Source: Ruminococcus difficilis
GTDB lineage: Bacteria; Bacillota_A; Clostridia; Oscillospirales; Acutalibacteraceae
Direction: 5' to 3'
DNA: 24,177 nt
Assembly (NCBI RefSeq): GCF_016680995.1
Contig: NZ_JAEQMG010000132.1
Location: 1 to 24,177, forward strand
The notes below the pieces were generated by a model. The model searched no databases. It saw only the letters and a list, made by a program, of their open reading frames with translations, and was not told the origin of the DNA. Each line of letters begins with the position of its first letter. Position 1 is the stretch's first letter. Made by a program: the position numbers and the translations under genes. Below are positions 1,327-22,264 of this stretch, one piece after another.

Positions 1327-1429
1327 TGCGACACAAACTAAACATCCATTCAAGTATGCTTATTAGAGCGTGCATTTTTACCATAGTAAAAATGCTCACT
1401 TGAATGAGAATTATTCAGTTTGTGTCGCA
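1327..1429. repeat. 103-bp nested inverted repeat, at the 5' end of the CHAP/ricin transcript
   Basis: There are three perfect nested arms: 13 bp (1327-1339 with 1417-1429), 9 bp (1347-1355 with 1398-1406) and 10 bp (1372-1381 with 1386-1395), closing on a 4-base loop. The predicted start of the minus-strand transcript is at about 1428, so the RNA would begin almost exactly at the base of the long stem. The element also lies just upstream of the serine recombinase gene. It could be a structured RNA leader, a MITE-like insertion or a recombinase-related site. No target-site duplication was evident by eye. Confidence 0.7.
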
Positions 1430-1434
1430 CTTAA

Positions 1435-1463
1435 ATCATACCATATTTTCCTGTATCATGCAA
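1435..1463 (-). promoter_or_regulatory. Promoter of the CHAP/ricin gene
   Basis: On the minus strand, TTGCAT (1463-1458) is followed after 17 bases by TATGAT (1440-1435), a good sigma-A-type promoter. The expected start at about 1428 leaves a leader of about 170 nt that contains the nested inverted repeat and the attenuator-like hairpins. Confidence 0.6.
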
Positions 1464-1532
1464 TCCAAAAAATCACTATCCGATTTAGCAAATTTGCACA
1501 GAACATATCTTCATCAAATTTCATCATGCATG

Positions 1533-1561
1533 TTGACAATTTCTCCCATCCGCGCTACAAT
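1533..1561 (+). promoter_or_regulatory. Near-consensus promoter of the serine recombinase gene
   Basis: TTGACA at 1533-1538, a 17-base spacer, and TACAAT at 1556-1561. The expected start is near 1568, right at the GGAGG site, so the leader would be only about 12 nt. Because the promoter lies downstream of the first in-frame ATG at 1370, it supports translation from 1580. Confidence 0.7.
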
Positions 1562-1579
1562 GCGGACGGAGGTGGTTTT

Positions 1580-4082: not shown

Positions 4083-4093
4083 AGCCTTGAACA

Positions 4094-4176
4094 AACGGGA
4101 GCTTGTGTGACAGGCTGAGAGGGAGGTACTACCTCCGACCGGTAACCTGATTTGGATAATGCCAACGTAGGGATAT
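4094..4176 (+). promoter_or_regulatory. TPP riboswitch (THI-box) aptamer
   Basis: The conserved elements appear in order: GGGAGC at 4097-4102, CTGAGA at 4115-4120, a P3 hairpin (GGGAGGT pairing with ACCTCC, 4121-4135), ACCTGAT at 4145-4151, then GGATAATGCCAACG and GTAGGGA up to about 4173. This is the standard thiamine-pyrophosphate aptamer. It lies between the promoter and the terminator ahead of thiS, so TPP should switch off the operon by transcription termination. Confidence 0.95.
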
Positions 4177-4191
4177 ACCTTAGAATTGTTG

Positions 4192-4226
4192 CGGAGTACT
4201 GCCAAATCGGCGGTGCTCCGTTTTTT
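4192..4226 (+). terminator. Riboswitch-controlled intrinsic terminator
   Basis: CGGAGTACTGCC (4192-4203) pairs with GGCGGTGCTCCG (4209-4220), followed by TTTTTT. It sits 16 bases after the TPP aptamer and 20 bases before thiS, the expected place for the expression platform. TPP binding should favour this hairpin. Confidence 0.9.
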
Positions 4227-4245
4227 CTTGCAAGGAGGTTACAAA

Positions 4246-4440
4246 ATGGTTTTAATCAACGGAAAAAACACGTCTGCAGACGGAAAGACAGTCAGTCAGT
4301 ATCTCGAAGAAGCAAACTTCAATCCTCAGACGATTGCGGTTGAACTTAACGAGGATATTCTGCCCAAGCCGCAATACGGAGAAACCGTGCTCAAAGACGG
4401 CGATGTCCTCGAGGTCGTCAGCTTTGTGGGAGGAGGTTAA
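4246..4440 (+). CDS. thiS: ThiS, sulfur carrier protein of thiazole synthesis
   Basis: The start at 4246 follows AAGGAGG at 4232-4238; the in-frame ATG at 4186 is rejected because it lies within the riboswitch terminator. The product is 64 residues, the usual ThiS size, with a ubiquitin-like beta-grasp pattern and a C-terminal Gly-Gly-Gly. The terminal glycine is adenylated by ThiF and converted to a thiocarboxylate that gives its sulfur to ThiG. It is the first gene of the operon, one base ahead of thiF, whose ribosome binding site lies in the thiS 3' end. Confidence 0.95.
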   Translation: MVLINGKNTSADGKTVSQYLEEANFNPQTIAVELNEDILPKPQYGETVLKDGDVLEVVSFVGGG

Positions 4441-4441
4441 T

Positions 4442-5074
4442 ATGCCTACCAAAGAAGAATGGCAGAATGCCTTTGCCGCTCGACACGGTGAAAAGCTGCA
4501 AAAGGTCTTTTCTTCATCGGTCGTCGCCGTATGCGGTCTGGGCGGCTTAGGCTCAAATATCGCGACAGCACTCGCAAGAGCCGGAATCGGCAAGCTGATT
4601 CTGATCGACTTTGACAGTGTGGATCTATCCAATCTCCACCGTCAGCAATATAAAGCCTCGCAAATCGGCAAATACAAAACCGACGCGATAGTAGAAAACC
4701 TGTGCGAGATCAATCCATATATCCGGACAGAAGCACACACCATACGTCTGACTGAGGAAAATGCCCTTACCCTGCTGTCACAGGCAGATGTGATCTGTGA
4801 GGCGTTTGATAATCCGCAGGCAAAGGCAATGCTGTGCAATCTCGTATTAGAGAAGCTGCCGCAAAAGTTCTACGTTGCCGCGTCAGGCATGGCAGGTATC
4901 GACAGTCCGAATCTGATCAAGACAAAACGCGTCAGCAAACGCTTTTATCTCTGCGGCGACGGCGTTAACGGCGTAGGAGAAAGCGACGGCCTGTTTGCAA
5001 GCCGCGTAATGCTGTGTGCGGCTCATCAGGCGCACACGGTTTTGCGCGTGCTGGCAGAGGAATATGAAGTATAA
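4442..5074 (+). CDS. thiF: ThiF, ThiS adenylyltransferase (short type)
   Basis: The start at 4442 is set by GGGAGGAGG immediately upstream; the longer in-frame extension to 4334 overlaps thiS. The product is 210 residues. The nucleotide-binding motif GLGGLG is at 32-37, with the Asp-rich IDFDSVD strand at 55-61 and LHRQQY, all typical of E1-like/ThiF enzymes that activate the C-terminus of ThiS with ATP. The paired zinc-binding CxxC motifs of longer ThiF/MoeB proteins are absent, as in the roughly 200-residue class common in clostridia. The gap to thiS is one base and to thiG 17 bases, so the genes are co-transcribed. Confidence 0.93.
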
Positions 5075-5091
5075 CGAAAGAAGGTCAAAAT

Positions 5092-5862
5092 ATGAATAAC
5101 GATAAACTGATACTCGGCGGTCACGAATTCAACTCGCGTTTTATTCTCGGCTCGGGTAAATACTCTCTGAACCTGATTGAAGCGGCAATCAAAGACGCAG
5201 GCGCTGAAATCATCACGCTTGCAGTAAGGCGCGCCAATACCAAAGACGGAGAGAACATTCTCGATTTTATCCCGAAAAACGTTACCCTGCTGCCCAACAC
5301 AAGCGGCGCGAGAAACGCAAAGGAAGCGGTCAGAATTGCCAAACTTGCGCGCGAGCTGGGCTGCGGCAATTTTGTAAAGGTAGAGATCATGCGCGACTCC
5401 AAATATCTTCTTCCAGACAATCAGGAGACGATCATAGCGACTGAAACGCTTGCAAACGACGGCTTTGTCGTTCTGCCGTACATGTATCCCGACCTCAACG
5501 TTGCGCGCGACTTGGTCAGCGCAGGCGCGGCGGCGGTTATGCCTCTTGCCTCTCCTATCGGCTCCAACAAGGGACTTGCCACAAAGGATTTCATTCAGAT
5601 ACTGATTGATGAAATCGATTTACCCATCATCGTTGACGCGGGCATCGGCAAGCCCTCTCAGGCGTGCGAAGCGATGGAAATGGGCGCTGCGGCGGTCATG
5701 GCAAACACCGCTCTTGCAACCGCGGGCGATTTGCCATTAATGGCGGCAGCCTTCCGTCAGGCAATCGAGGCAGGCAGAAAGGCGTATCTCTCGGGCTTGG
5801 GCAGAGTGCTCACCCGAGGCGCTTCCGCTTCCGATCCTCTGACGGGATTTCTGCATGACTGA
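5092..5862 (+). CDS. thiG: ThiG, thiazole synthase
   Basis: The 256-residue TIM-barrel protein matches ThiG throughout: [19 protein letters not shown] at the start, GNFVKVEI with Lys96 (the position of the Schiff-base lysine for deoxyxylulose phosphate), [23 protein letters not shown], and ASASDPLTG at the end. It condenses deoxyxylulose 5-phosphate, dehydroglycine and ThiS-thiocarboxylate into the thiazole phosphate. AGAAGG lies just upstream of the start. It sits between thiF and thiH, its sulfur-carrier activator and dehydroglycine supplier. Confidence 0.97.
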
Positions 5863-5873
5863 GGGAGAATGAA

Positions 5874-7127
5874 ATGGAAAACCGATTTTTAGTTGATTCC
5901 GATTCTCTTTCAGAGGAAGCGCTCAAACGCAAGCACCGTCTGGAAACCGACCCTTCATCAAGAACAGACCATATGGCATATATGGAAGGAATGGAGATTA
6001 TCGAATCCGACGTGTGCGAGAACGTCATCTCGCAGATGAAATCCTACGACTACACAAAGTACACTGCAAAGGACGTAAAAGCCGCGCTTGAACACGAAAC
6101 CTGCACGATTGAGGATTTCAAAGCGCTCCTTTCCCCTGCCGCCGAACCGTTTCTGGAACAGATGGCACAGCGGGCGCGTCTTGAAACAGGCAAGCACTTC
6201 GGCAACACGGTCTATATGTTCACGCCGCTGTACATCGCGAATTACTGCGAAAACTACTGCGTCTACTGCGGCTTTAACTGCTACAACAAAATCAGCCGCA
6301 TGAAGCTGAGCATGGAACAGATAGAACACGAAATGCAGGTCATCGCACAGAGCGGAATGGAGGAGATCCTTCTTCTCACCGGCGAAAGCCGCGGACAAAG
6401 CAACGTCGAATACATTGGCGAAGCCTGCAAGCTCGCGCGGAAGTATTTCCGCATGGTCGGACTGGAAATCTATCCTGTAAATACAGACGAGTACCGCTAT
6501 CTGCACGAATGCGGAGCGGACTATGTCACCGTTTTTCAGGAAACCTACGACGCCGACAAATACGAAACGCTTCATCTTTTTGGTCACAAGCGCGTCTGGC
6601 CTTACCGCTTTGACGCGCAGGAGCGCGCGCTTCGCGGCGGCATGAGAGGCGTTGCATTCTCCGCTCTGCTTGGGCTTTCCGATTTCAGAAAGGACGCGCT
6701 GGCTTCCGCCCTGCACGTCTATTATCTGCAGAGAAAGTATCCATATGCCGAAATGTCGCTTTCCTGCCCCCGACTGCGCCCGATTATCAACAACGACAAA
6801 ATCAGCCCTCTGGACGTTCACGAAACGCAGCTGTGCCAGATTCTCTGCGCCTACAGAATTTTTCTGCCGTATGTCGGCATCACGGTTTCCTCGCGTGAAA
6901 GCGCAGAATTCCGCAACGGTATCGTCAAAATTGCCGCGACAAAGGTTTCCGCGGGCGTATCGACAGGCATCGGAGACCATGAGAGCAAGTACAGCGGCAC
7001 TGAAGCGGACGGACAGCAGGGCGACGAACAGTTTGAAATCAGCGACAGCCGCAGTCTGTCAGCTATGTATTCAGATATTACAGGCGAAGGCCTGCAGCCT
7101 GTGCTGAACGATTATTTATATGTGTAA
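5874..7127 (+). CDS. thiH: ThiH, radical-SAM tyrosine lyase (dehydroglycine synthase)
   Basis: The 417-residue protein carries the radical-SAM motif CxxxCxxC at Cys125, Cys129 and Cys132 (NYCENYCVYCGF), followed by LLLTGE, FQETY, SFRLRP-like SCPRLRPI, and a C-terminal GLQPVLNDY that matches ThiH. It cleaves tyrosine to dehydroglycine and p-cresol for ThiG, the anaerobic alternative to ThiO glycine oxidase. GGGAG at 5862-5866 precedes the ATG. It is about 40 residues longer at the N-terminus than E. coli ThiH; the extra segment is polar and includes a run of Met residues (34, 37, 40), so a later start cannot be excluded. The stop overlaps the next gene by 8 bases. Confidence 0.95.
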   Translation: MENRFLVDSDSLSEEALKRKHRLETDPSSRTDHMAYMEGMEIIESDVCENVISQMKSYDYTKYTAKDVKAALEHETCTIEDFKALLSPAAEPFLEQMAQRARLETGKHFGNTVYMFTPLYIANYCENYCVYCGFNCYNKISRMKLSMEQIEHEMQVIAQSGMEEILLLTGESRGQSNVEYIGEACKLARKYFRMVGLEIYPVNTDEYRYLHECGADYVTVFQETYDADKYETLHLFGHKRVWPYRFDAQERALRGGMRGVAFSALLGLSDFRKDALASALHVYYLQRKYPYAEMSLSCPRLRPIINNDKISPLDVHETQLCQILCAYRIFLPYVGITVSSRESAEFRNGIVKIAATKVSAGVSTGIGDHESKYSGTEADGQQGDEQFEISDSRSLSAMYSDITGEGLQPVLNDYLYV

Positions 7128-7722
7128 GATAATATGTATCACAAACCGCCTTCTGTGCGGCAAGGACTTTATCGGTCATCTCGAAGCTGTCGCAGCGGCT
7201 CACCCCGACGCTGTTATTCTGCGCGAAAAGGGTTTGTCGGAAGCGGATTATCTGCGCCTTGCGGAACAAACAAAAGCTATATGTGAAAAGCAGCAAACGC
7301 TGCTGATTCTTCACAGCTTTCCCAACGCGGCAAAGGCGCTCAGTCACAAAGCGATTCATTTACCCATGCCCATGCTCAGACATCTTTCGGATAGAGAGCG
7401 CGCGTACTTTTCTGTCTTAGGCGCGTCCTGCCATTCTGTTGAAGAAGCGAAGGAAGCCGAGCGGCTCGGGTGCACCTATATCACCGCAAGTAATGTTTTT
7501 GAAACTGATTGCAAAAAGGGCTTGCCGGGAAAAGGCGTAGAGTTTTTGCGTGAGATTTGCGAAAGCGTCAATATAGATGTATACGCGCTGGGAGGTATTA
7601 CCGCTCGGAATATCGCTGAGCTCATGCGTTCAGGCGCGGACGGCGCTTGTATCATGAGCGGCTTCATGAAGTCCGAGAACCCCGAAATATTGATGGAGGA
7701 ATTACACAATGCGATTTCATAA
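7120..7722 (+). CDS. tenI: TenI-like protein (thiazole tautomerase / ThiE-fold)
   Basis: The 200-residue ThiE-superfamily TIM barrel is distinct from the true ThiE that follows. It matches TenI through VILREKGLS, SCHSVEEA and the signature VFETDCKKGLPGKG near 126-139, then ALGGI and GADGACIMSGFM. TenI converts the ThiG product to the aromatic carboxythiazole tautomer. At the place where B. subtilis TenI has His122 (GHVFETDCKKG), this protein has Asn125 (SNVFETDCKKG), so its activity may differ. The ATG overlaps the thiH stop by 8 bases with no clear ribosome binding site, which suggests translational coupling. It overlaps thiE by 14 bases. Confidence 0.85.
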   Translation: MCKIICITNRLLCGKDFIGHLEAVAAAHPDAVILREKGLSEADYLRLAEQTKAICEKQQTLLILHSFPNAAKALSHKAIHLPMPMLRHLSDRERAYFSVLGASCHSVEEAKEAERLGCTYITASNVFETDCKKGLPGKGVEFLREICESVNIDVYALGGITARNIAELMRSGADGACIMSGFMKSENPEILMEELHNAIS

Positions 7723-8350
7723 GGATATGCTGCTTTTATACGCCATTACCGAGGAGTACTGCAACCGTCAAAGACCGCTGATCGAGATGGTAAAGGAAGC
7801 GCTCGAAGGCGGCGTTACAATCTTGCAGCTGCGCGAAAAGCATTTGAGTGACGAGGAGCTTATGACGGAGGCTCTGGAAATCAAGGAGCTTTGTCATTCC
7901 TACGGCGTTCCGCTGATTATCAACGACAACGTCGAGCTCGCTTTGCGCTGCAGTGCGGACGGTGTGCATGTCGGTATTGAGGATACGCCCGTTGCCGAAA
8001 TCCGCGCAAAGGCAGGCAATGACTTTATCATAGGCGCGACGGCAAAAACCGTTGAACAGGCAACCGCCGCCGAACTGGCAGGAGCGGATTATATCGGCGT
8101 CGGCGCGGTATTCCCTTCACCTACCAAGCAAAACGCCGTGCGTATCACAAACGCTCAGCTTCGTGAAATCACCTCAGCTGTGTCGATTCCTGCCGTCGCA
8201 ATCGGCGGCATTACGCTTGGTAACATTTCGCAGATCGACTGCGGCACCCTTTCAGGGATCGCGGTTGTATCGGCGGTTTTCGGCGCGAAGGATATTACGC
8301 AGGCAGCTAAAGAGTTAAAAGCCAAGGCGACTGCTTTGGTTCATTCATAA
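7709..8350 (+). CDS. thiE: ThiE, thiamine-phosphate synthase
   Basis: The 213-residue TIM barrel has the ThiE active-site set: QLREK at 40-44 (pyrophosphate binding), PLIINDNV with Asn72 and Asp73, ADGVHVG at 83-89, GADYIGVGAVFPSPTK at 125-140, and AIGGI. It joins HMP-pyrophosphate with the thiazole phosphate to give thiamine phosphate. The start follows GGAGG at 7695-7699 inside the preceding gene. The GATAKT segment at 109-114 stands where B. subtilis ThiE has GVSAHT; I take this as lineage variation. Confidence 0.95.
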   Translation: MRFHKDMLLLYAITEEYCNRQRPLIEMVKEALEGGVTILQLREKHLSDEELMTEALEIKELCHSYGVPLIINDNVELALRCSADGVHVGIEDTPVAEIRAKAGNDFIIGATAKTVEQATAAELAGADYIGVGAVFPSPTKQNAVRITNAQLREITSAVSIPAVAIGGITLGNISQIDCGTLSGIAVVSAVFGAKDITQAAKELKAKATALVHS

Positions 8351-8356
8351 AAAACA

Positions 8357-8389
8357 GCGGCGGATCGGGGGCACCACCTTCCGTCGCTC
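8357..8389 (+). other. Hairpin in the thiE-thiD gap
   Basis: AGCGGCGGA (8357-8365) can pair with TCCGTCGCT (8381-8389), one G-T wobble in nine pairs. There is no T-run, so it is not a classical terminator; an mRNA processing or stability element is possible. Confidence 0.4.
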
Positions 8390-8414
8390 AACAAAAATAA
8401 TGTGAGGAGAAAAT

Positions 8415-9212
8415 ATGAGAACTGCATTATCAATCGCGGGAAGCGATTCCTGCGGAGGCGCCGGTATTCAGGCAGATATCAAAACCATGACAATGAACGG
8501 CGTGTATGCCATGACCGCCGTCACCGCTTTGACCGCGCAGAATACGCTCGGCGTGAGGGCGATTCAGGAGGCGACTCCCGAATTTCTCCGTCAGCAGCTC
8601 GACGCGGTATTCGAGGACATCTTCCCCGACGCGGTCAAAATCGGTATGGTCGCAAGCTCGGACCTGATTCGCGTTATTGCGGACAGGCTCCATTGTTGCA
8701 AGGCGATGAACATCGTTGTCGACCCGGTCATGGTATCCACAAGCAACGCAGCCCTGATAAAGACCGACGCTGTTAGCACTTTGACAGAGGAACTGCTTCC
8801 TCTCGCCACACTCATTACGCCAAACATTCCCGAAGCTCAGGTTTTGTCGGGAATGGAGATACACAGCAGCGCCGATATGGAGAAAGCCGCCGAACAGCTC
8901 GGCAAATCCTATGGCTGCGCGGTACTGCTCAAGGGAGGTCATTGCGTGAATGACGCAAATGACCTGCTTTACTCAAACGGTACGCTCCGTTGGTTTGAGG
9001 GAAAACGCATCGACAATCCAAACACCCACGGCACAGGCTGCACGCTGTCAAGCGCGATAGCAGCAAATCTTGCCAAGGGTTACACTTTGGAAAAGTCTGT
9101 TGAACGCGCCAAGGATTATATTTCGGGCGCTCTTGCCGCTATGCTCGATTTAGGTAAAGGCAGCGGTCCCATGAACCACGCGTTTGCGCTGAACAATAAA
9201 TATTCTGACTGA
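8415..9212 (+). CDS. thiD: ThiD, hydroxymethylpyrimidine/phosphomethylpyrimidine kinase
   Basis: The 265-residue ribokinase-fold protein starts with [21 protein letters not shown], the classic ThiD opening. It continues with [28 protein letters not shown] and the C-terminal anion-hole motif [14 protein letters not shown] near 203-216. It phosphorylates HMP and HMP-phosphate to the pyrophosphate used by ThiE. GAGGAG lies just before the ATG. The 64-base gap from thiE holds a small hairpin but no promoter that I can see. Confidence 0.95.
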
Positions 9213-9226
9213 AAGGAACCACTGAA

Positions 9227-10540
9227 ATGAAACAATACTATACGCAAATGGAAGCCGCCAAAAAAGGCATTATCACTCCCGAAATGGAAATTGTCGCCGC
9301 CAAAGAGGACATGGACGTTGAGCCGCTGCGCGAGAGAGTCGCGCAGGGCGTTATCGCGATTCCCTGCAATGTGCGTCATTCCTCGATCTCCCCCGAGGGT
9401 ATAGGTATGGGTCTGCGCACCAAAATCAACGTAAACCTCGGTATTTCGGGCGACTGCAAGGATTACTCGGTCGAGATGCAGAAAGTTGATATGGCAATCA
9501 GATTCGGCGCGGAAGCGATCATGGACTTGAGCAACTACGGCAAGACCAACACCTTCCGCCGTCAGCTTATAGAAAAATCTCCCGCAATGATCGGCACCGT
9601 ACCGATGTACGACGCGATCGGTTATCTCGAGAAAGATCTGCTCGACATCACCGCAGAGGACTTTCTGAGGGTAGTTCGCGCTCACGCCGAGGAAGGCGTT
9701 GACTTCATGACGATTCACGCGGGTATCAACCGCCGCGCTGTGGAAGCATTCATGCGCGACAAAAGAAAAATGAACATCGTATCCAGAGGCGGCTCTCTCC
9801 TGTTTGCATGGATGATGATGACAGGAAACGAAAACCCGTTCTTTGAGCACTACGACGAGGTGCTTGATATTCTACGCGAATTCGATGTTACCATCAGCCT
9901 TGGCGACGCTCTCCGCCCCGGCTGCATTGACGACAGCACCGACGCAGGACAGATTTCTGAGCTGATTGAGCTTGGAAATCTGACAAAGCGCGCATGGGAA
10001 AAGGACGTTCAGGTAATGGTCGAAGGTCCCGGTCACATGGCAATGAACGAAATTGAAGCGAACATGAAGCTGCAAAAACGGCTTTGTCATAACGCTCCGT
10101 TCTACGTTCTCGGTCCGCTGGTAACCGACATCGCTCCCGGCTACGACCACATCACCTCCGCAATCGGCGGTGCAATTGCTGCTGCGAGCGGCGCTGATTT
10201 TCTCTGTTACGTAACCCCTGCCGAGCATCTCAGGCTGCCCGATCTGAGCGACGTAAAGGAAGGCATTATCGCCAGCCGTATCGCGGCTCACGCTGCGGAC
10301 ATCGCAAAGGGCGTTCCTCACGCGAGAGAACAGGACGACGCTATGGCGGACGCCCGTCACAAGGTTGACTGGGATGAGATGTTCAAACACGCGATTGACC
10401 CTGAAAAGGCTCGTGCGTACTTTGAGAGCACTCCGCCTGCCGACCGCCACACCTGCTCCATGTGCGGCAAGATGTGCGCTGTCCGCACAACCAACATGAT
10501 TCTTGAAGGCAAAAAGGTCGAGTTTTGCTCCGAGCTGTAA
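9227..10540 (+). CDS. thiC: ThiC, phosphomethylpyrimidine synthase
   Basis: The 437-residue protein is ThiC of the shorter class that lacks the long N-terminal domain of the E. coli enzyme. It shows [50 protein letters not shown] and [20 protein letters not shown]. The C-terminal cluster-binding motif is Cys410, Cys413 and Cys417 (CSMCGKMC). The spacing is one shorter than the E. coli CX2CX4C, which I believe is normal for this class. The enzyme rearranges aminoimidazole ribotide to HMP-phosphate using a radical-SAM iron-sulfur cluster. GAAAGGA precedes the ATG. It is the last gene before the operon terminator. Confidence 0.97.
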
Positions 10541-10657: not shown

Positions 10658-10687
10658 TTGGACAACAGCAGACTTTGGTTGTATAAT
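10658..10687 (+). promoter_or_regulatory. Promoter of the metQNI operon
   Basis: TTGGAC at 10658-10663, an 18-base spacer and a perfect TATAAT at 10682-10687. Transcription should start near 10694, leaving a leader of about 164 nt with a small reading frame. I found no S-box or T-box features in that leader. Confidence 0.65.
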
Positions 10688-10799: not shown

Positions 10800-10857
10800 T
10801 GACAAACCAAAACGATTATAAACAAAACAATTCGGAGTATAGAAAGGATTTATTATC

Positions 10858-11772
10858 ATGAAAAAAATAACCGCAATTCTTACAGCAGCCGCACTGGTTC
10901 TGACATCAGCAATAGCTTTTGCAGGCTGCTCAAACAAAACCGAATCATCTGATTCATCTGCTTCTTCCGACAAAGCGACATCAGCGGTCAGCACCTCTGC
11001 CGAAAAGCTTACAATCGCGATCCCGAATGATACCACAAACGAAGCTCGTGCGCTTCTGCTCTTACAGGAGCTTGGCTACATCAAGCTCAAGGACGGTGCA
11101 GGAATTACCGCAACACCGAAGGATATCGCCGAAAACGCCCACAACCTCGAATTCAAGGAAGTAGAAGCCGCTCAGGTTCCCAACGCACGTCAGGACGTTG
11201 ACTACGCGATCATCAATTCAAACTACGCGATTGAAGCAGGTCTGAATCCCGTCAAGGATTCGCTCGGTATTGAAGGTTCAGCATCCGCATACGGCAACAT
11301 CCTTGTCGTCAAGGAGGGCAACGAGAAAGAACCGAAGCTCCTAGCATTAAAAGCAGCGCTCGAAAGCCGGAAGGTAGCGGACTTTATTAAAGAAAAGTAT
11401 GACGGCTCTGTTGTAAGCGTCGTAGAAAAAACCACCAACGGATTTGATGATTCCATTGATTACGCAGCACTCAAGGGCGAAAAAGTAACCATCGCAGCTT
11501 CTCCTACACCGCATGCAGAGATTCTCTCTGTTGTCAAGGACATTCTCGCAGAGAAGGAAATCACTCTTGACATCAAGGAGTACACCGATTATGTTCAGCC
11601 CAACAACGTAGTTGACAGCGGCGAGCTTGACGCAAACTACTTCCAGCATCTCCCCTATCTTGATGACTTCAACGCTGAAAACGGCACAAAGCTCGTTTCA
11701 ATTTCGACAATTCACGTTGAACCTCTCGGACTCTACGGCGGAAAGCAAACAACTCTTGACGCCTTAAAATAA
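10858..11772 (+). CDS. metQ: MetQ-type methionine-binding lipoprotein, circularly permuted
   Basis: The 304-residue protein has a lipoprotein signal peptide with lipobox FAGC (Cys24) and a Ser-rich linker to about residue 49. Residues 50-189 match the part of MetQ that is normally C-terminal: TIAIPNDTTNEARALLLLQ, IKLKDG, INSNYAIEAGLNP, AYGNILVVKEGN, VADFIKEKYDGSVV. After a linker (190-207), residues 208-304 match the normally N-terminal part: VTIAASPTPHAEIL, YTDYVQPN, GELDANYFQHLPYLDDFN, IHVEPLGLYGGKQTTLDALK. In ordinary MetQ the LDELK segment runs straight into the AIPND segment; here they are the two ends of the mature protein. All parts are present once, so this is a circular permutation and not a truncation or duplication. 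It should bind methionine or a related ligand outside the membrane and deliver it to MetI/MetN. Confidence 0.93.
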   Translation: MKKITAILTAAALVLTSAIAFAGCSNKTESSDSSASSDKATSAVSTSAEKLTIAIPNDTTNEARALLLLQELGYIKLKDGAGITATPKDIAENAHNLEFKEVEAAQVPNARQDVDYAIINSNYAIEAGLNPVKDSLGIEGSASAYGNILVVKEGNEKEPKLLALKAALESRKVADFIKEKYDGSVVSVVEKTTNGFDDSIDYAALKGEKVTIAASPTPHAEILSVVKDILAEKEITLDIKEYTDYVQPNNVVDSGELDANYFQHLPYLDDFNAENGTKLVSISTIHVEPLGLYGGKQTTLDALK

Positions 11773-11785
11773 TCATATAAAACTC

Positions 11786-11815
11786 TGCGCCGACCGTACT
11801 GCTTCGATCGGCGCA
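11786..11815 (+). other. Hairpin between metQ and metN
   Basis: TGCGCCGA (11786-11793) pairs with TCGGCGCA (11808-11815). No T-run follows. Such hairpins after binding-protein genes often protect the upstream mRNA and raise the binding-protein level over the membrane parts; that role is inferred here. Confidence 0.5.
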
Positions 11816-11847: not shown

Positions 11848-12858
11848 ATGATTGAGATTAAAAACCTGTCCAAAACCTTCTCCACGGCTGACGGCACATT
11901 CCAGGCACTGAAAAACGTCAACATCTCCGTCAGCGACGGTGATATTTTCGGTATCATCGGAATGAGCGGCGCTGGAAAAAGCACTTTGGTTCGCTGTATC
12001 AATATGCTCGAGCGTCCCAGCGAAGGCAGCGTGGTGATTGACGGCGTAGATGTCGGCACGCTCGGGAGACGTGAACTGCGCAAGCTTCGCCGCAGCGTGA
12101 CGATGATTTTTCAGGGCTTCAACCTTTTGATGCAGCGCACCTGTCTGAAAAACGTCTGCTTTCCGCTGGAGCTCGACGGCGTCGGCAAAAAGGAAGCAAA
12201 AAAACGGGCTCTTGAGCTGCTTGAGCTCGTCGGACTCAGCGACAAGGCTAACGCCTATCCCTCACGTCTTTCGGGCGGTCAGCAGCAGCGTGTTGCCATT
12301 GCGCGCGCTCTGGCGACAAACCCGAAGGTGCTGCTCTGCGACGAAGCGACCTCTGCCCTCGATCCGAAAACAACGCGTTCCATTCTCTCTTTAATCAAGG
12401 ATATCAACGAAAAGCTCGGTATTACCGTCATCATCATTACTCATCAAATGAGCGTGATTGAGGAAATATGCAGCCGTGTGGCAATTCTTGAAAACGGCGA
12501 GGTTGTCGAACAGGGCGAGGTCAATCAAATATTCAGCTCACCAAAATCAGAGGCGGCAAAACACCTCGTGTTCCCCGGTGAAGAGGAAAATGTCGCCGAG
12601 CTCCAATACGGAAAACGCGTGCTGCGTGTAGTGTTCAACGACTCGGAATCGACAGAAACGCCGTTGATTGCAAAGTTAGCGGCGGAAAAAGGCATCGCGG
12701 CAAATATCCTGTACGCTTCCACCAAGAGCGTCGGCGGAAAAGCGTTCGGCTGTATGCTGCTGAGCTTTCCCGACGGAGAGACAGCCGAAGGAGCCAAAAG
12801 GTATTTGTCGTCACACGACGGAATCACGGTAGAGGAGGTTGTAAACAATGGGAAATGA
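11848..12858 (+). CDS. metN: MetN, methionine ABC transporter ATPase with NIL domain
   Basis: The 336-residue protein has an ABC ATPase at residues 1-240: Walker A GMSGAGKST with Lys44, Q-loop at 89, signature LSGGQQQ at 141-147, Walker B VLLCDEATSALD with Asp165 and Glu166, and the switch His199. Residues about 255-336 form the NIL-type ACT-like domain that in MetN senses internal methionine and inhibits transport. GAAAGG lies upstream of the ATG. It follows metQ and overlaps metI by 11 bases, the usual MetNI arrangement. It energises uptake through MetI. Confidence 0.95.
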   Translation: MIEIKNLSKTFSTADGTFQALKNVNISVSDGDIFGIIGMSGAGKSTLVRCINMLERPSEGSVVIDGVDVGTLGRRELRKLRRSVTMIFQGFNLLMQRTCLKNVCFPLELDGVGKKEAKKRALELLELVGLSDKANAYPSRLSGGQQQRVAIARALATNPKVLLCDEATSALDPKTTRSILSLIKDINEKLGITVIIITHQMSVIEEICSRVAILENGEVVEQGEVNQIFSSPKSEAAKHLVFPGEEENVAELQYGKRVLRVVFNDSESTETPLIAKLAAEKGIAANILYASTKSVGGKAFGCMLLSFPDGETAEGAKRYLSSHDGITVEEVVNNGK

Positions 12859-13558
12859 TTTGTTTTCTGCTGAGGTGCTCAACGAAACATGGGAAATCAT
12901 GTGCAATGATATGCCTCTGGCGCTCTGGGAAACCTTCTATGTCACTGTCGCCGCAACATTTTTCGCGATAGTCATCGGACTGCCGCTCGGCGTGCTGCTG
13001 GTGGTTGGCGAAAAGGACGGTATACTGCCGATCCCAAAGCCTGTCATGGGCTTTCTGAACGTACTGATCAACGTGCTGCGCTCGGTTCCGTTCCTGATAT
13101 TAATGATTCTGGTGTTTCCTCTTACCCGTCTGATTGTGGGCACGATCGTCGGCACAACAGCGTCAATCGTACCGCTTGTGATCGCCGCGTTCCCGTTTGT
13201 AGCGCGGCTCGTAGAAAGCAGCCTGCGCGAGGTCAATCCGAATATCATTGAGGCTGCGCAGAGCATGGGTGCATCGCCGCTGCAGATCATCGTCAAGGTG
13301 ATGATACCAGAGAGCGTTCCATCATTGATATCCAACTTCACCATTGCCGTCACCACGGTTCTCGGCTACACCGCAATGAGCGGCATCATCGGCGGCGGAG
13401 GTCTCGGAAAAATCGCCATTAACTATGGATATTACCGGTATAAATATCTTGTTATGCTTGTTGCCGTCGTAATTCTTGTGCTCCTCGTTCAGCTTTTCCA
13501 GAGCGTAGGCACTAAGCTCGCAAAGGCAACCGATAAACGGCTGAAAAGCGGAAAGTAA
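12848..13558 (+). CDS. metI: MetI, methionine ABC transporter permease
   Basis: The 236-residue membrane protein has about five hydrophobic segments (roughly 32-55, 73-100, 103-120, 160-185, 203-225). It carries the permease EAA loop EAAQSMGASPLQIIVKVMIPES near 135-156, which docks on MetN. Its size and the opening ALWETFYVTVAATFFAIVIGLPLGVLL-like segment fit MetI. The ATG lies inside the metN 3' end behind GAGGAGG, indicating coupled translation. It is the last gene of the operon before the terminator at 13565. Confidence 0.95.
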   Translation: MGNDLFSAEVLNETWEIMCNDMPLALWETFYVTVAATFFAIVIGLPLGVLLVVGEKDGILPIPKPVMGFLNVLINVLRSVPFLILMILVFPLTRLIVGTIVGTTASIVPLVIAAFPFVARLVESSLREVNPNIIEAAQSMGASPLQIIVKVMIPESVPSLISNFTIAVTTVLGYTAMSGIIGGGGLGKIAINYGYYRYKYLVMLVAVVILVLLVQLFQSVGTKLAKATDKRLKSGK

Positions 13559-13564
13559 AAAACA

Positions 13565-13606
13565 CGCAGGCAGATAGCCAAGCGGTTATCTGCCTGCGGT
13601 TATTTT
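13565..13606. terminator. Bidirectional intrinsic terminator between metI and the dehydrogenase gene
   Basis: A 12-bp perfect stem (13565-13576 with 13587-13598) is followed by GTTATTTT on the plus strand and by TGTTTTTT on the minus strand. It ends metQNI and can also end the minus-strand dehydrogenase transcript. Confidence 0.85.
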
Positions 13607-15565: not shown

Positions 15566-18500
15566 TTATTCCCTGAGTTTCCAGTTGCCGTTGGGTTCCT
15601 GTTCAATGATATTGGCGGATTTCAACTGATCAAAGGCGGTCTGGAAGGCGGCGGAAACGTTGGCGCCCATGCGCGGATAGCCCATCAGCTTGGCTGCCTG
15701 CTTGACCGCGTCCGGCTCGTTCAGGCTGATTTGCTGCCGCAGGACATAGGCGACGGCGTTGACCGCCTCGCAGCGCGGGATGTCCTTGGCGTCGCGCTTG
15801 CATTCTCCCTCGCCGGAAACGCGGATGAGGGTGTAGGCGGACGGGTTCTGTCCCCTGTTCCAGAGAATAGTTTCACCGTCCTGTGCGGTCTCGACCAGCT
15901 CCAAACGGCGATATGCCTCAGAAAGAAGCTCCTGCGTTTTTGCGGTGAATCGGGTGATGGAGTAACTCGCGAGGACGCGCTTATTCAGCAAACTGCGGCT
16001 GACAGGAGCTTCGACGCGCATGATTTCGGAGACCGTATTGCAGAGCTTGTCAAAATGGCGCGGAAGGTTTTCCGCAGAAACGGCGCGGTTTTTGACAGCG
16101 GCGGCGCGATACGGCTGAACCGGAGAAAAGGCGCTTTCGTCCCTGACGTTATCTTCGAGCGTGCCGCTGTCTTCCGCAACGGGTCTGACCTCTTCGCTGA
16201 CTATGCTTTCGCCGTTTTCGAGCTTTTTGAGCAGTTCAAGCAGACGGGCTGTTTCCTTTTCGCGGTTATCCCACCAGTCCATTGTCCAGACGCGGGTCAT
16301 CTGCCAGCCGAGTCCGCTGAGGACGCCGATCTGCGCGTATTCCCGGTCCCTGACAGTTTTGGACGCGCCGTAAATCTCGCCGTCAAGAAGGATGCCGAGG
16401 AGATATTTTTCCGGATTGGCGGGATCGATCACGCCGATATCAATGCGGAAATTGGAATGACCGACATGCTGCGAGGTTTCGTAGCCTGCCTCGCGGAGCC
16501 TGTCGCAGATCTCGCGGGCGATGCCGTCCTGACGGGCATGGTAGCTGTCGGAGGTAGCACGGGTAAGCGCCAGCTCTCTTCCGGAGGCGTATTCCAGAAA
16601 GGCGCGCAACGCTGCCACGCCCTCGGCGCTCGTTTTGGTGAGGTTGATCTGCTCTGGCGTGATGGAGCTGAATACCAGCATCTCGCACCTTGCGCGGGAA
16701 ACAGCTACATTGAGCCGCCGCCAGCCGCCCTCACGGTTGAGCGGACCGAAGTTCATATAGACCTTGCCCTCCTTGTCGGGACCGTAGCCTACGGAGAACA
16801 GGATCACGTCGCGTTCGTCTCCCTGCACGTTTTCAAGATTTTTGATAAATATCGGCTCCTCAGCTTCGTAGAGCCATTTCTCCAGGCTCTCGTCGGCGGC
16901 GCAGGCATCGTTGAGCAGGTCGTCGATAAGGTTTTGCTGGGAAATATTGAAGGTGACAACGCCGAGGCTCTGTTTGTTCAGCTCGCTGTCCTGATAGCGT
17001 CGCTTGATTTCGGCGACGACCGCCTCCGCCTCTCTGAGATTGCGGCGGTTCGTACCGCGCTCAAAAACGCCCTCGACCTGCACCAGATTCACCTTGCTCT
17101 CGCGGTCGTTGACGGACGGGAAGGTGTAGAGCTTGTTCTCATAGAATTGGCTGTTGCTGAACGCAATCAGGCTCTCGTGACGGCTGCGGTAGTGCCAGAG
17201 CAGATGGGTCTGCGGCATATTGAGCGCGAGGCAGTCATCAAGGATGCTTTCAAGATCCTCAACGTCAAGGTTGTCCTCGTCCACGGTATTCGAGGCAAAG
17301 AACGAGGTCGGCGGCATCTGCTTGGGATCGCCGACAATGACGGCGTTCTCACCGCGTGCGAGTACACCGACCGCCTTGCATGTAGGAAGCTGGGAGGCTT
17401 CGTCAAAAACAACTACATCAAAAGGCTTGCGGTTGGTGCTGAGATACTGCGCCGCCGAGATCGGGCTCATCAGCATACAGGGACAAAGGCGCGGCAGAAG
17501 GTTAGGCAGGTCGTCGAATAGCTTGCGGATACTGGTACCGCGGCCGCCGCTGCGGATCATCCGCTGCAGAATGCCCAGCTCGGAGCTGTTTGCCGCCGAG
17601 GAGGTGAAGTCGGGTACATTTGCCGCGAGGCGGCAGTATATCTCCTGCTTGCAAAGCTCGGTCAGCTCTCCCTCGATACGCTTGAACTGCGCAACCTTCT
17701 CGTTGAATACCGAACCCGAGAAGGTGTTAAGGACGGGCGTTTCGTCAATGACGATTCCGATCAGCGACTGCAGCATCGATTTGCGGTAGAGCGGGAGGAC
17801 TTCTTCGTGCGGCAGTCCCTCTTTATACTTGAGAAGCACCTCGCCGAGACCGGCTTCCCCGGCTTCGCGGGAAACATCGTTAAAGACGACCCAGTCCTTG
17901 AGGTCGCTGCAGTGGCGGCGGATTTGCTCACAGAGGTCGAGTTGGGTATCGATCCAGTCGCCGTCCGCGGACTGCTCGCGCAGGGATACGGCGGAAACAA
18001 AGTTCTCACGCGCCTGTTTAAGGGCTTCATACCGCTCGTTGAAGGTATGCAAAACGGCTTTCGCGGTTTGGTCGCCGAGAAGCTGCGAGCGGCGGGATTC
18101 GTCGGGCAGGAGCGCTTCAAGCGCCGGAAGATTGTTGAGCGCCTGTGCCGCCATAGCGGAAACGCGGTTCCAGTCAATATAACTGCCTTCGCCGAGTGCG
18201 CCCAGCTCACTGCCGTAACGCTGATAGAGAGCCTGTGCCGCACGGAATTCGCTCTGATAATCGGCAAGGGTCTTGAAGCTCTGCGAGAGCGTCATGCTGT
18301 TGATCGGCACGCGCGAGAAGGGCTTGAGACGGTCGGTGATCTTACGGATCGCGCCGCTCTTTCCGAGCCACTTGGCATTGGCGGCGTTGTACTCGGCGAG
18401 CAGCTGCTCGGGATTCTGGTTAAGGAAGCCCTCGTTCCAGCTGCGCATCAGCTCCGCGTGCAGGCGGCCGAGGTTGCCGTAGCGCTTTGCCATGGTGAGG

Positions 18501-21304
18501 ACGTCGTTATAATAGCGTCGCTTGTCCGTCGCCTGCGCCCATTGCGGCGGCAGGGAGAGCCAGTAGCAGAGCGCGACGGAGAAACCGTGGATCCGCTCGA
18601 TATCGTCAAAGCCGTTGACCTCGATCTGTGCCATTTCGGCGGCAGCGTCCAGCGAAGGTCGGAAAGCGGTCAGTGCGGCATCATATTCTTCCGAAGAATG
18701 ATCGATAATGGATTTGAGCTGCTGGGAGTACTGTGTGACACCGACGGCGGACAGCGGATGGTGCTGAGGATGTCCGACGGTTCTTCCGGAGGCGACCAGC
18801 CTCTCCAGCAGGGTCAGGTGATTATCCAGCGCGGCGGCGTCGAGCCGCTTGACAAAGTCACGCGAAAAGGCAACGGTTTCGCCCTCAAAATCAACGGTTT
18901 CATAATCACTGATGAGCTGATAGAGCGTTCTGCCGCAGGGTTGGACACTATGGAGCTTGGATGCGTAGGCGTCCAGCTCACCGCGCAGCGCCGCCGCCTG
19001 CTCCGCTTTGGCACGGTATTGCGCAGAAGTGGTCTTTTTGGTGACCTCGGTCGCCTCTCGGAGCTGTTCGAGGACATCGCGCTTCTTGGACTTATTGGAG
19101 TGCAGCTCGAGGCAGAACGCGCCGATGCCGATTTTATTCAGGCGCTTCTGCACCACCTCAAGCGCCGCCATTTTTTCCGCGACAAAGAGCACGCTTTTGC
19201 CGGCAATCAGGAGGTTGGCGATCATCGATGTGATGGTCTGGGATTTACCGGTGCCGGGCGGGCCGTGGAGGACAAAGCTCTTGCCCTCGCAGGCGGATTC
19301 GATTGCAAACAGCTGTGACGCGTCGGCGGGCATCGGAAGCATCATCTTGCCCTCCTCTACCCTATCGCCGATGGTCATCGGTTCGGCGTCCCAGCAGAGT
19401 CTGCCCTCCATAAGGCTCCTGACTATCTTATTCCGTCGGAGATCGCCGGAACGGTTGCGGATGTCGTTCCACATAACAAATTGCGAGAAGGAGAAAATGC
19501 CGAGGTAGGCGGACTCGAGCACATCCCACTTATTCTGATTCATAACCGCCTTGCGGAGTACGGTGAACACGCGTCGTGTATCGATGCCGTGCTCGTCCAT
19601 CGGAAGCGGATCGAGGCCGTTGATGACGATGCCGAAGTCCTGCTTGAGCTTTTCGAGCATGGTGATGTTCATCTGAGGCTCGTCGTCGCGCAGGCGCAAA
19701 ACATAGCCCTGCCGCGAGGATTTGCGGACAATCTCAATCGGGAGCAGTATAATCGGCGCGTAACGAGGCTTGACGCTGCGCTCGGTTTCGTACCAACGCA
19801 GCAGACCCATGGCAATATAGAGCGTATTGGCGCCGTTCTCCTCGATGGACGCCTTGGCGCCGCGGTAAAGGCTCTTGACGCCCGCTTCCAACTCGGATTC
19901 GGTGAGAATGGAGCGCAGGCGGTGGTGCGCAAATTCCGACTTGATCAGCTCGGCAAAGCTGCCCGAATCATGCATATTCTCGAAGCCTGCGTCCTTGGTA
20001 CTGCCCCATTCGGCGGGTTTTGGCAGGACGGTGAAGTCCTCGCCGTCGGAGAGCGCGTCCTCCAGATCGTCGAGCGAGGTGGTGAGGATAGGAACAATGG
20101 TTTTGGAAAAACGCAGGTTTATCAGGTTATTGCGCAGTCCCAGATCAAGCAGCTTGCGTTCCCACTGCATCTGCTTGGTGAGCTGCGATTCGTCCTGCCC
20201 GGGCAGGTCGGTGACAAATTTATCGATTTCCCGCGGCCGCACAGAGGATCGCAGGTTGTTTTTTTCGTCCTTTTGGATAACAAAGCCCGCATCGGTGCGG
20301 ATGCGCTGCGGCAGCGGGCGGACGCCGCTGATGCGCGCGCGGTGCACGTCAATGACGCATTCGACACCATCCTCGTTGAGCTGCTTTTCCGCGTGGGAAC
20401 GCGCCTGATCAAAGGAACAGCGCTTGCCGCTGACCATCATGGTGCTTTCGGCGACGGCGATCTCATTGACTCCGAGGGCAAGGCGCTTGCTTACGACAGA
20501 TGCGTCGTACTGCACCGCCTCCGGGAAGGACAGATCCTCCAGCCAAACGCCGCTGAAAATATGACTGCGCGTCAGCAGCAGAAGCGGGTGCAGGCCTACC
20601 GCCTCCATACATGAGGCGTACAGCAGCGAGAGGTCGAGGCAATTGCCCATTTTCTGCTGCAAAACGGCGTCGCACAGACGGACGCGCTGACCCCTCTCCT
20701 CAAAACTCGCGGGTGCGGTGCAGTAGATAAGCTGCAGTTCGCAGATTGCCTCAAAAATTGCCGCCGACTGAGAAAGCACGCGGTTGACGTCCTGCGACTG
20801 GTAGGCGTCAAAGGAGGGGTCGCCCGTCCATTTTCCGAGGAAATCTGCGGCGCGTGAGATCACCTGCGCCAGCGCGGGATGGTTGGGCACGACGAAGGAG
20901 GTCAGCAGCTCCGGATAGATACCGGCACCCTGCCATTCGTCAAATGCGAGCACCGAAATCTCCGTCGTTTGCGAGGCGAGTTCGCCGCTGCTGTCTGACA
21001 GGGAGACGGTGACGGCGCACGTCATCTTCTCGGTGAGGTTCGCAAGCTCGTCCACGTTCAGCAGCAGCTCGACGTCCGTCACGCGGAAGGTGTTGCAGGC
21101 GGGAATATAGTCGAGCGTGATCGTATATGGCATGATGATCGCGGGCACTGAGGAAACGGACAGCGTGACCCGCTCCAGCGCGGTTTCACGCGTATTTTCC
21201 ACGGTAACACAACGCATCACGCGGAGTTCATTCTGATACAGCGCGTAATTGATGACCGGCGTCATCTCGGCGGTGATGGTGATCGGTTGTTGAGCAGCGT
21301 TCAT
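15566..21304 (-). CDS. Giant SF1 (UPF1-like) helicase with DUF4011, REase-like nuclease and DUF3320 regions
   Basis: The 1912-residue protein starts at ATG 21304 behind GTGAGGT. Residues about 1-145 are a beta-rich region. Residues about 150-320 are transglutaminase/cysteine-protease-like, with GNCLDLS (Cys222) and a His at 248. The DUF4011 region starts near 379 (QWERKLLDLGLRNNLINL). SF1 helicase motifs follow: Walker A GPPGTGKS (Lys687), DEASQ (Asp1301), GDPKQMPP, HYRSRHESL, QGDERDVI near 1495 and NVAVSRAR near 1532-1539. Residues between 720 and 1230 are a long helical insertion. Near 1610-1700 a REase/Vsr-like nuclease region has FRIDIGVID (Asp1622), LDGEIY and GWQMTRVWTMDWW. The end resembles DUF3320. 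It stands alone with its own promoter and terminator. Comparable multi-domain helicase-nucleases occur in anti-phage defence, but the role here is inferred. Confidence 0.9.
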   Translation of the reverse strand: MNAAQQPITITAEMTPVINYALYQNELRVMRCVTVENTRETALERVTLSVSSVPAIIMPYTITLDYIPACNTFRVTDVELLLNVDELANLTEKMTCAVTVSLSDSSGELASQTTEISVLAFDEWQGAGIYPELLTSFVVPNHPALAQVISRAADFLGKWTGDPSFDAYQSQDVNRVLSQSAAIFEAICELQLIYCTAPASFEERGQRVRLCDAVLQQKMGNCLDLSLLYASCMEAVGLHPLLLLTRSHIFSGVWLEDLSFPEAVQYDASVVSKRLALGVNEIAVAESTMMVSGKRCSFDQARSHAEKQLNEDGVECVIDVHRARISGVRPLPQRIRTDAGFVIQKDEKNNLRSSVRPREIDKFVTDLPGQDESQLTKQMQWERKLLDLGLRNNLINLRFSKTIVPILTTSLDDLEDALSDGEDFTVLPKPAEWGSTKDAGFENMHDSGSFAELIKSEFAHHRLRSILTESELEAGVKSLYRGAKASIEENGANTLYIAMGLLRWYETERSVKPRYAPIILLPIEIVRKSSRQGYVLRLRDDEPQMNITMLEKLKQDFGIVINGLDPLPMDEHGIDTRRVFTVLRKAVMNQNKWDVLESAYLGIFSFSQFVMWNDIRNRSGDLRRNKIVRSLMEGRLCWDAEPMTIGDRVEEGKMMLPMPADASQLFAIESACEGKSFVLHGPPGTGKSQTITSMIANLLIAGKSVLFVAEKMAALEVVQKRLNKIGIGAFCLELHSNKSKKRDVLEQLREATEVTKKTTSAQYRAKAEQAAALRGELDAYASKLHSVQPCGRTLYQLISDYETVDFEGETVAFSRDFVKRLDAAALDNHLTLLERLVASGRTVGHPQHHPLSAVGVTQYSQQLKSIIDHSSEEYDAALTAFRPSLDAAAEMAQIEVNGFDDIERIHGFSVALCYWLSLPPQWAQATDKRRYYNDVLTMAKRYGNLGRLHAELMRSWNEGFLNQNPEQLLAEYNAANAKWLGKSGAIRKITDRLKPFSRVPINSMTLSQSFKTLADYQSEFRAAQALYQRYGSELGALGEGSYIDWNRVSAMAAQALNNLPALEALLPDESRRSQLLGDQTAKAVLHTFNERYEALKQARENFVSAVSLREQSADGDWIDTQLDLCEQIRRHCSDLKDWVVFNDVSREAGEAGLGEVLLKYKEGLPHEEVLPLYRKSMLQSLIGIVIDETPVLNTFSGSVFNEKVAQFKRIEGELTELCKQEIYCRLAANVPDFTSSAANSSELGILQRMIRSGGRGTSIRKLFDDLPNLLPRLCPCMLMSPISAAQYLSTNRKPFDVVVFDEASQLPTCKAVGVLARGENAVIVGDPKQMPPTSFFASNTVDEDNLDVEDLESILDDCLALNMPQTHLLWHYRSRHESLIAFSNSQFYENKLYTFPSVNDRESKVNLVQVEGVFERGTNRRNLREAEAVVAEIKRRYQDSELNKQSLGVVTFNISQQNLIDDLLNDACAADESLEKWLYEAEEPIFIKNLENVQGDERDVILFSVGYGPDKEGKVYMNFGPLNREGGWRRLNVAVSRARCEMLVFSSITPEQINLTKTSAEGVAALRAFLEYASGRELALTRATSDSYHARQDGIAREICDRLREAGYETSQHVGHSNFRIDIGVIDPANPEKYLLGILLDGEIYGASKTVRDREYAQIGVLSGLGWQMTRVWTMDWWDNREKETARLLELLKKLENGESIVSEEVRPVAEDSGTLEDNVRDESAFSPVQPYRAAAVKNRAVSAENLPRHFDKLCNTVSEIMRVEAPVSRSLLNKRVLASYSITRFTAKTQELLSEAYRRLELVETAQDGETILWNRGQNPSAYTLIRVSGEGECKRDAKDIPRCEAVNAVAYVLRQQISLNEPDAVKQAAKLMGYPRMGANVSAAFQTAFDQLKSANIIEQEPNGNWKLRE

Positions 21305-22052: not shown

Positions 22053-22161
22053 AACCTTTATCGCAACAACTCACAGTATTATTGTATTCGAAATATTATT
22101 GATTCATAAAAAAGTGTATATTTGTCGCTGCTTGACTTGTTTTGCGATATTTCGCCTTGAA

Positions 22162-22191
22162 TATGGCTGTTATTTATGGCTGTTATTTATG
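22162..22191 (+). repeat. 13-bp tandem duplication in the upstream region of the surface-protein gene
   Basis: TATGGCTGTTATT occurs twice in direct succession (22162-22174, 22175-22187), followed by a third start TATG. A TATGAT at 22193-22198 directly after it is a candidate -10 box, so copy-number change would shift the promoter spacing. Confidence 0.7.
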
Positions 22192-22264
22192 TTATGATAA
22201 AAAGCAAAGATGCAGCGCGGCGCACTCTTTGTCACGCTGTGCGACGGTTAAAGGAGGAATATCC

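Follow-up and report, generated by a model that had tools for sequence, protein, structure and literature searches.

A gene near the middle of the window, as we call the whole 24,177-nt stretch of DNA analysed here, encodes a protein that resembles the methionine-binding lipoprotein MetQ but presents the two halves of that family in reversed order. The question raised by this locus is whether the order reflects a genuine and working circular permutation or a fault of assembly, and, if it is genuine, how often it arose and what it would do to a substrate-binding protein. The reading favoured below, at a probability of about 0.86, is that the gene product (P0001) is the binding lipoprotein of a MetNIQ methionine importer that underwent a single permutation, in a clostridial ancestor.

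Segment order and methionine site of the window gene

P0001 is a complete, circularly permuted MetQ/NlpA substrate-binding lipoprotein. Against Pfam it matches PF03180 (NlpA lipoprotein) with 266.6 bits, the gathering cut-off being 27, in two stretches of reversed order, the better of which sets residues 43-187 on profile positions 90-234; at E up to 0.001 no Pfam family except PF03180 is found in it. The same crossing is seen with PDB chain 4k3f, the best solved relative by sequence (residues 208-303 on chain 3-98, residues 51-187 on chain 102-238). A blastp comparison with E. coli MetQ, a reference named in the initial annotation, also yields two crossed segments (E 2e-29 and 2e-14), with identity at 54/138 aligned residues in the canonical second part, hereafter the C segment, and at 31/99 in the canonical first part, the N segment. 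A profile of 73 canonical relatives gives native P0001 307.6 bits in total over two crossed domains (176.6 bits, profile 91-238 at residues 43-186; 134.1 bits, profile 1-96 at residues 209-304), and when the halves are rearranged to canonical order the same profile finds a single domain spanning positions 1-238 with 328.3 bits. Two independent matches of such size in reversed order are not chance, and no comparison, whether with Pfam, 4k3f, the canonical profile or blastp, aligned the protein collinearly over its full length. The curated NCBIfam models TIGR00363 (148.8 bits against a cut-off of 228.85) and NF008285 (149.5 against 374) also split into two stretches, and fall below their cut-offs because the segment order is swapped.

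The initial annotation had described two whole but swapped halves, with new termini at the LDALK/AIPND junction, and both the halves and the position of the cut are borne out, as are the reading frame and the stop codon of the ORF. Its linker of 18 residues holds by its own boundaries, but between the HMM edges the linker of the window gene is 20 residues long (187 to 208). The gene and its surroundings are laid out as follows.

10659..10687, + strand: promoter-like TGGACA-17-TATAAT, 11/12 (consensus match; three in the region against 3.2 in shuffles)
10843..10848, + strand: likely ribosome binding site AAAGGA, 9 nt before the ATG (by eye)
10858..11772, + strand: permuted metQ, 304 aa (ORF, Pfam, PDB-chain and profile matches)
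10858..10929, + strand: putative signal peptide with lipobox FAGC, Cys24 (sequence, by eye)
10930..11004, + strand: spacer, residues 25-49, predicted disordered up to 47 (pLDDT <50 for 1-47)
11005..11418, + strand: C segment (canonical second part, AIPND...GSVV), residues 50-187, with R64, N122 and N147 inside (Pfam, 4k3f, profile, alignment)
11419..11478, + strand: new linker between the old termini, residues 188-207, with G195, Y202 and G207 invariant (alignment, 109/109 distinct permuted ORFs)
11479..11769, + strand: N segment (canonical first part, VTIAASPTPHAEIL...LDALK), residues 208-304, with Y245, F262, H264 and Y267 inside (Pfam, 4k3f, profile, alignment)
11786..11815, no strand assigned: hairpin of 11 pairs in the metQ-metN gap (given by the hairpin scan as terminator-like, - strand)
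11848..12858, + strand: metN, ATPase with C-terminal NIL domain (Pfam, NCBIfam)
12848..13558, + strand: metI, permease (Pfam, NCBIfam)
13565..13598, + strand: terminator-like hairpin after metI, 15 pairs (consensus match)

The operon context is intact, as had been annotated, in that metQ is followed by metN with its NIL domain and by metI. The promoter-like site, the likely ribosome binding site and the terminator-like hairpin, consensus matches that are no commoner than in shuffles, suggest that metQNI forms a unit of its own behind the thi operon. The strong hairpin between metQ and metN possibly sets the level of metQ above that of metNI. No SAM riboswitch or other known RNA was found before metQ at E up to 1, and the only Rfam match at gathering score in the window is a TPP riboswitch (4085-4190), behind which runs a thiamine operon (4085-10540 together) for ThiF-like, ThiG, a radical SAM protein with a BATS domain (ThiH-like), two TMP-TENI proteins, phosphomethylpyrimidine kinase and ThiC. 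Elsewhere in the window are a candidate defence protein of 1912 aa with DUF4011, helicase-type AAA domains and an MTES_1575 nuclease domain (15566-21304, - strand), a serine recombinase with resolvase, recombinase and zinc-ribbon domains that possibly marks a mobile element (1370-3100, + strand), ricin-type lectin repeats with a weak NlpC/P60 match, truncated by the window end (3-1256, - strand), and a beta-helix repeat with a weak fn3 match, open at the window end (22142-24175, + strand).

According to the available text of PMC6739813, methionine in N. meningitidis MetQ is contacted by R156, N213 and N238 of one domain and by Y81, F98, H100 and Y103 of the other, and N238A lowers L-Met binding by more than 10^5; the available part of PMC12357092 describes a similar effect for N229A in E. 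coli MetQ. The corresponding positions in P0001 are R64, N122, N147, Y245, F262, H264 and Y267, placed through E. coli MetQ (R144, T204, N229, Y69, F86, H88, Y91) and motif spacing rather than through the meningococcal sequence; N147 corresponds to E. coli N229, and N122 stands opposite a threonine, T204. The C segment supplies three of these positions and the N segment the other four, and both should thus still contribute to the site. All seven are kept in 109/109 permuted genes, and in 70-73 of the 73 canonical ones, and to judge by its sequence the permuted protein looks functional.

There is some reason to ask whether permutation altered the ligand or the closure of the lobes, for example toward a methionine derivative or another sulfur compound, given that the cut would adjoin the hinge, that the anchor would be shifted to the other lobe and that a thiamine operon precedes the gene in this window. 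The initial annotation had suspected a change in ligand choice, but nothing points to one: the methionine contacts are kept in 109/109 permuted genes, the neighbours are metN with its NIL domain and metI, and 84 of 120 permuted ORFs sit in a plain metQ-metN-metI arrangement within the DNA covered (most of the others are truncated or have additional ATPase-like ORFs close by). We regard altered ligand or closure as improbable, and prefer a methionine-binding protein with a conventional site.

Distribution of the permuted form and the quality of its assemblies

The search for homologues of the same order, also asked for in the initial annotation, drew on 190 sources and extracted 120 ORFs with the C segment before the N segment (C-N), 74 with the canonical order (N-C) and one lone C piece; after removal of one short N-C ORF and of identical copies, 109 permuted and 73 canonical sequences were left. 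In a scan of one genome per species, with a query biased to permuted forms, the C-N order was present at 77 of the best 80 loci among at least 590 relatives, and six other ORFs there were canonical. Records titled by strain carry the permuted gene in Faecalibacterium prausnitzii APC923/61-1 (L117), Faecalibacterium An122 (L121), Oscillibacter ER4 (L101) and MSJ-31 (L075). Vescimonas fastidiosa MM35 (NZ_AP023416, linear, 861 kb, among plasmid records) has a one-piece match in a metQ-metN-metI arrangement that is annotated as MetQ/NlpA family. All 34 genomes chosen from the matches listed for a split-match signature match P0001 through the junction, a count that confirms this two-match signature, by which they were preselected, and is no estimate of frequency. 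These genomes span 17 families of the class, 8 inside the order and 9 outside it, and include assemblies of a single contig (G1009) and of two contigs each (G880 and G588).

In the genus of G001, the nearest of the genomes searched (it shares 25% of the window's words), a match is present in 21 of 100 genomes; both halves are essentially whole in 16 of these (17 loci), always with C before N, and no full-length canonical match was found in those 16. G001 itself, at 89% completeness, yielded the permuted gene only and no conventional metQ. At the level of the family a match is present in 59 of 249 genomes, of which 23 are permuted (14 genera), 32 have near-full-length canonical copies above 200 bits and six have only weaker or partial matches; two genomes, G288 and G334, carry both forms, their canonical copies being very divergent (branch 2.5). 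Permuted MetQ is not a one-off on these counts, and looks like an apparently single-origin clade spread over many families. An apparent broken permuted copy was also seen (G059:C162:6456-6943), with two short ORFs that carry part of a C segment before part of an N segment.

Could the permuted gene be an artefact in which two tandem canonical copies of metQ were collapsed, so that the tail of the first and the head of the second pass for a single gene? The initial annotation had named such misassembly among the findings that would undo it, and oddly joined MetQ forms do exist in the protein database: among 121 proteins (P0001 and its best 120 matches), 84 are C-N, 19 are C-N-C, 16 are N-C-N and 2 were scored C-C-N. 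Misassembly is nonetheless excluded by the assemblies of one or two contigs and by the isolate-titled records, and was rejected on these records together with the 34/34 matches through the junction and the 77/80 loci; moreover, 109 distinct permuted ORFs have a linker of 20-23 residues and a stop of their own, and one clade with a conserved linker is not expected from collapse. We give the artefact practically no credence, and return to a real permuted gene.

The oddly joined forms call for an account of their own. C-N-C and N-C-N proteins came only from the protein search (sources ena, lgn and jgi). None occurs in the best 80 of at least 590 relatives, though the first row of the query is itself C-N-C, and none was seen by eye among the genus, family and wider matches listed. 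By eye the two forms look reciprocal, switching between canonical and permuted sequence in near-alike stretches around ANYFQHLPYLE, EPMGIY and YVNVLVCK. It might be held that they are real surviving duplication intermediates or recombinants, as they form several clusters whose members are alike in length but come from different contigs, a few of these long (42 kb for P0010, 24 kb for P0138), and P0074 represents 93 member sequences. Their absence from the loci and matches just named and their reciprocal look make this unlikely, and they look instead like misjoins or rare recombinants; as duplication intermediates they were given no weight, since the genome records covered contain none of them and a switch between paralogues is the best reading. 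P0005 (281 aa), one of the proteins scored C-C-N, is probably a split match of a shortened copy. Two further oddities may be tandem binding-protein fusions, a 544-aa open frame with canonical MetQ behind other sequence (L034 / L196, G272) and a 656-aa protein with PF00497 and MetQ (P0199).

Origin of the permuted clade, its operon and its linker

The metQ tree of 86 rows was built from 42 of the 109 permuted genes, 43 canonical genes and E. coli MetQ as outgroup; 45 of the 73 canonical rows had been sampled after seven long branches were set aside, and L040 and L041 (branch 2.5) were then left out. Over 233 columns the permuted genes form a clade with support of 100/99, nested among canonical Clostridia, and this clade is present in 100% of 200 bootstrap trees from a bootstrap that was itself incompletely settled. 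In a FastTree analysis of 182 rows and 233 concatenated columns the permuted genes fall on one side of a branch with support 99, and with the C columns alone the branch has 96; the N columns alone (96 columns) give a tree that requires two changes and not one. Neighbours of the permuted clade are L045, then L128, L127 and L049 with support of 71-85, the sister being weakly placed (71/86 for L045, 75/84 for the group with L128). Identity between canonical and permuted sequences reaches 69% in single pairs and, as a mean for the nearest canonical row, 63%; the window gene averages about 52% to all 73 canonical rows. Canonical and permuted metQ co-occur within the same order and family.

A second line of evidence comes from the transporter genes. 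In a tree of MetN and MetI from 98 operons, the 70 permuted operons form one group with support 88, a value that stood at 98 in a tree of 90 rows before L128 and other canonical metQ-first operons were added; an earlier tree with only three canonical rows showed two changes. Five permuted loci that have no usable metN or metI in range (L065, L071, L074, L107 and L126) lie outside this tree. The sister of the permuted group is a canonical metQ-first operon of Gemmiger formicilis An723 (L128, support 92), and next outward is Flavonifractor L127 with L195 (99).

Because the permuted genes are one clade nested among canonical MetQ, one origin appears likely. Repeated permutation, or reversion as the source of the canonical forms in these bacteria, could be read from the two changes in the N-segment tree, from the presence of both forms in G288 and G334 (albeit with very divergent canonical copies) and from the weakly resolved position of the closest canonical rows. 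Against this, the 233 columns give a single change at 100/99, the MetNI tree likewise gives one, and a single type of linker is found in 109/109 distinct permuted ORFs, so that repeated origin or reversion is very improbable and the single origin is retained.

Gene order changes four times across the MetNI tree. In 70/70 permuted operons metQ stands first; in the 28 canonical operons it is last in 22 and first in six (L034, L040, L041, L042, L113 and L128), and the order metN-metI-metQ is found at 60 of the 73 canonical ORFs. The idea that the operon flip was tied to permutation, with permuted genes always first and canonical ones always last, was rejected on account of those six operons. Since the sister operon L128 has a canonical metQ already in first place, metQ probably reached the operon front, still canonical, before it was permuted, a conclusion drawn from one sister locus, which lies where its contig ends. 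L128 itself, a 5.9 kb contig with canonical metQ before metN-metI, may represent a forerunner state of the permuted operon.

The linker between the HMM edges measures 20-23 residues in 120 ORFs, and 21 in 87 of them, with a consensus of roughly VV[ST]VVENP[TG]DG[YF]DxSVDYxALxGxTI in which a glycine, a tyrosine and a second glycine are invariant in 109/109 permuted ORFs. By eye its tail, LxGTTI, resembles the N-terminal spacer leading into the first strand of 3 of the 17 canonical rows inspected (LEGTTLKV in L049, LEGTVIKV in L127 and LAGTTIKV in L128), all of them near the permuted clade, a likeness to be expected if the linker goes back to the N-terminal spacer in a second copy of the gene. 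Summed across 64 pairs at 80-99% identity, pN/pS is 0.091 in the C segment, 0.165 in the linker and 0.100 in the N segment, rough values in that synonymous differences are high (0.48-0.58 per site, uncorrected). Both halves and the linker look to be under purifying selection, and by these measures the linker is evidently conserved rather than a passive splice.

Proposed lobe exchange and retethering, and known permutants

The AlphaFold2 model of P0001 has a mean pLDDT of 85.2 and a pTM of 0.77, with 227 residues at 90 or above, residues 1-47 below 50 and ten-residue means of 88-99 from residue 51 onward; a control model of canonical MetQ from 62 closely related rows reached a pLDDT of 42.6, too low to serve for comparison. 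Each modelled lobe starts strand-helix-strand-helix-strand-helix-strand (E51 H59 E97 H104 E116 H121 E147 in the first, plus a short strand at 90, and in the same order E209 H216 E236 H247 E259 H265 E279 in the second). In VIA comparisons, which are sequence-ordered, the MetQ-family chains listed match mainly the C segment, from residue 48 to about 182-192 (1p99 up to 271): the best rmsd, 2.0 A over 142 residues, is that of residues 48-192 on substrate-free N. meningitidis MetQ 6cva, and fits to closed MetQ structures over the same stretch are poor (4.3-5.5 A). At lower Z, LAO, GlnP domains and OpuAC match from about residue 47 through to residue 304 (180-219 residues, 3.8-7.3 A). Among these, LAO 6ml0 takes residues 49-304 in sequence order (182 residues, 3.8 A), GlnP SBD2 4kr5 takes residues 47-304 (184 residues, 4.1 A), and OpuAC, which we take to be type II, fits at 6.9-7.3 A. 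A library of viral structures gave five matches at E up to 0.001, all with TM of 0.32 or below. The model thus points to two lobes in type II strand order that have been exchanged, and, given the order of the predicted strands and what is generally known of this fold, the LDALK/AIPND cut would adjoin the first inter-lobe crossover.

If so, the permuted chain should fold to the same two-lobe trap, hold methionine at the lobe interface through the same seven residues and deliver it to MetI. The main physical consequence would be a shift of the lipid tether to the other lobe, the anchor now standing before the first strand of the former second lobe. We propose that the swap is tolerated because the lobes are pseudo-symmetric, which would leave the permuted chain on a type II path that starts in the former second lobe. 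The route may have begun with movement of a canonical metQ to the operon front, as in Gemmiger, followed by tandem duplication of metQ and in-frame fusion, and then by loss of the N segment of the first copy and of the signal and C segment of the second; in the genomes examined no duplication intermediate was found.

The export signals of the permuted proteins vary. By eye, the permuted MetQ of Faecalibacterium prausnitzii (L117, 4830-5774) has a Tat-like RRDFLK signal with a lipobox and may be exported folded, and the lipobox cysteine is absent from the permuted MetQ of two Treponema MAGs (L108 and L113). As export signals vary and some have no lipobox cysteine, lipid anchoring cannot fully account for the persistence of the permuted form. 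One of these MAG contigs (L113, 141-7568) has a canonical metQ-metN-metI followed downstream by a permuted metQ-metN-metI, and L108 and L095 are further Treponema MAG cases, possibly transferred from Clostridia or else bin contamination.

The PDB entry 1r9l, which enters the comparison below, is presumably ProX. Canonical MetQ (E. coli, N. meningitidis; PF03180) is like P0001 in segments homologous end to end, in ligand positions and in its MetN and MetI partners, as far as the available text of PMC6739813 goes; P0001 differs in its swapped segments, its new linker and, by inference, an anchor on the other lobe. The closest parallel in kind is TpMglB-2 (Tp0684), a 'Type Ic' glucose-binding protein that the available parts of PMC4990184 describe as a natural permutation in a membrane-tethered ABC binding protein, also reported in Gram-positive gut bacteria, with ligand binding and conformational change kept. 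That protein has a type I fold, a sugar ligand and a cut that adds a fourth crossover, and its permuted part is poorly similar in sequence (PMC4990184, same parts), whereas both halves of P0001 are clearly similar to canonical MetQ. Nor does P0001 belong to the Type Ic sequence family, PF03180 being the single Pfam family that it matches at the threshold given above. In the available text of PMC2395249, circular permutants are also described among glycine betaine-binding proteins (OpuAC, 2b4l; 1r9l; 1sw1); these bind another ligand family, and their members share less than 24% identity, which makes the event difficult to follow. Permutation of binding proteins (TpMglB-2; OpuAC/ProX) is thus already known, but permuted MetQ is new in the literature searched: no paper on it was found in the open-licence PMC literature, judged by titles and abstract starts, in keeping with the initial annotation, which had known of none.

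Natural circular permutants are often too diverged for the event to be easily reconstructed, and here canonical and permuted pairs are up to 69% identical. These close pairs, together with the shared ligand positions and an apparently single event, make the effects of tether position, folding order and a hinge-side cut testable on an ABC importer. It is a tentative and rather doubtful further suggestion that a single natural exchange of lobes gave rise to a separate MetNIQ lineage in gut Clostridia, with the other lobe tethered to the membrane, and that this new tether altered docking, release or the discrimination of L- and D-methionine; the forerunner of this lineage would likely have resembled the canonical metQ-first Gemmiger relative. 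If this were true, the event would offer a traceable model of lobe swapping in type II binding proteins.
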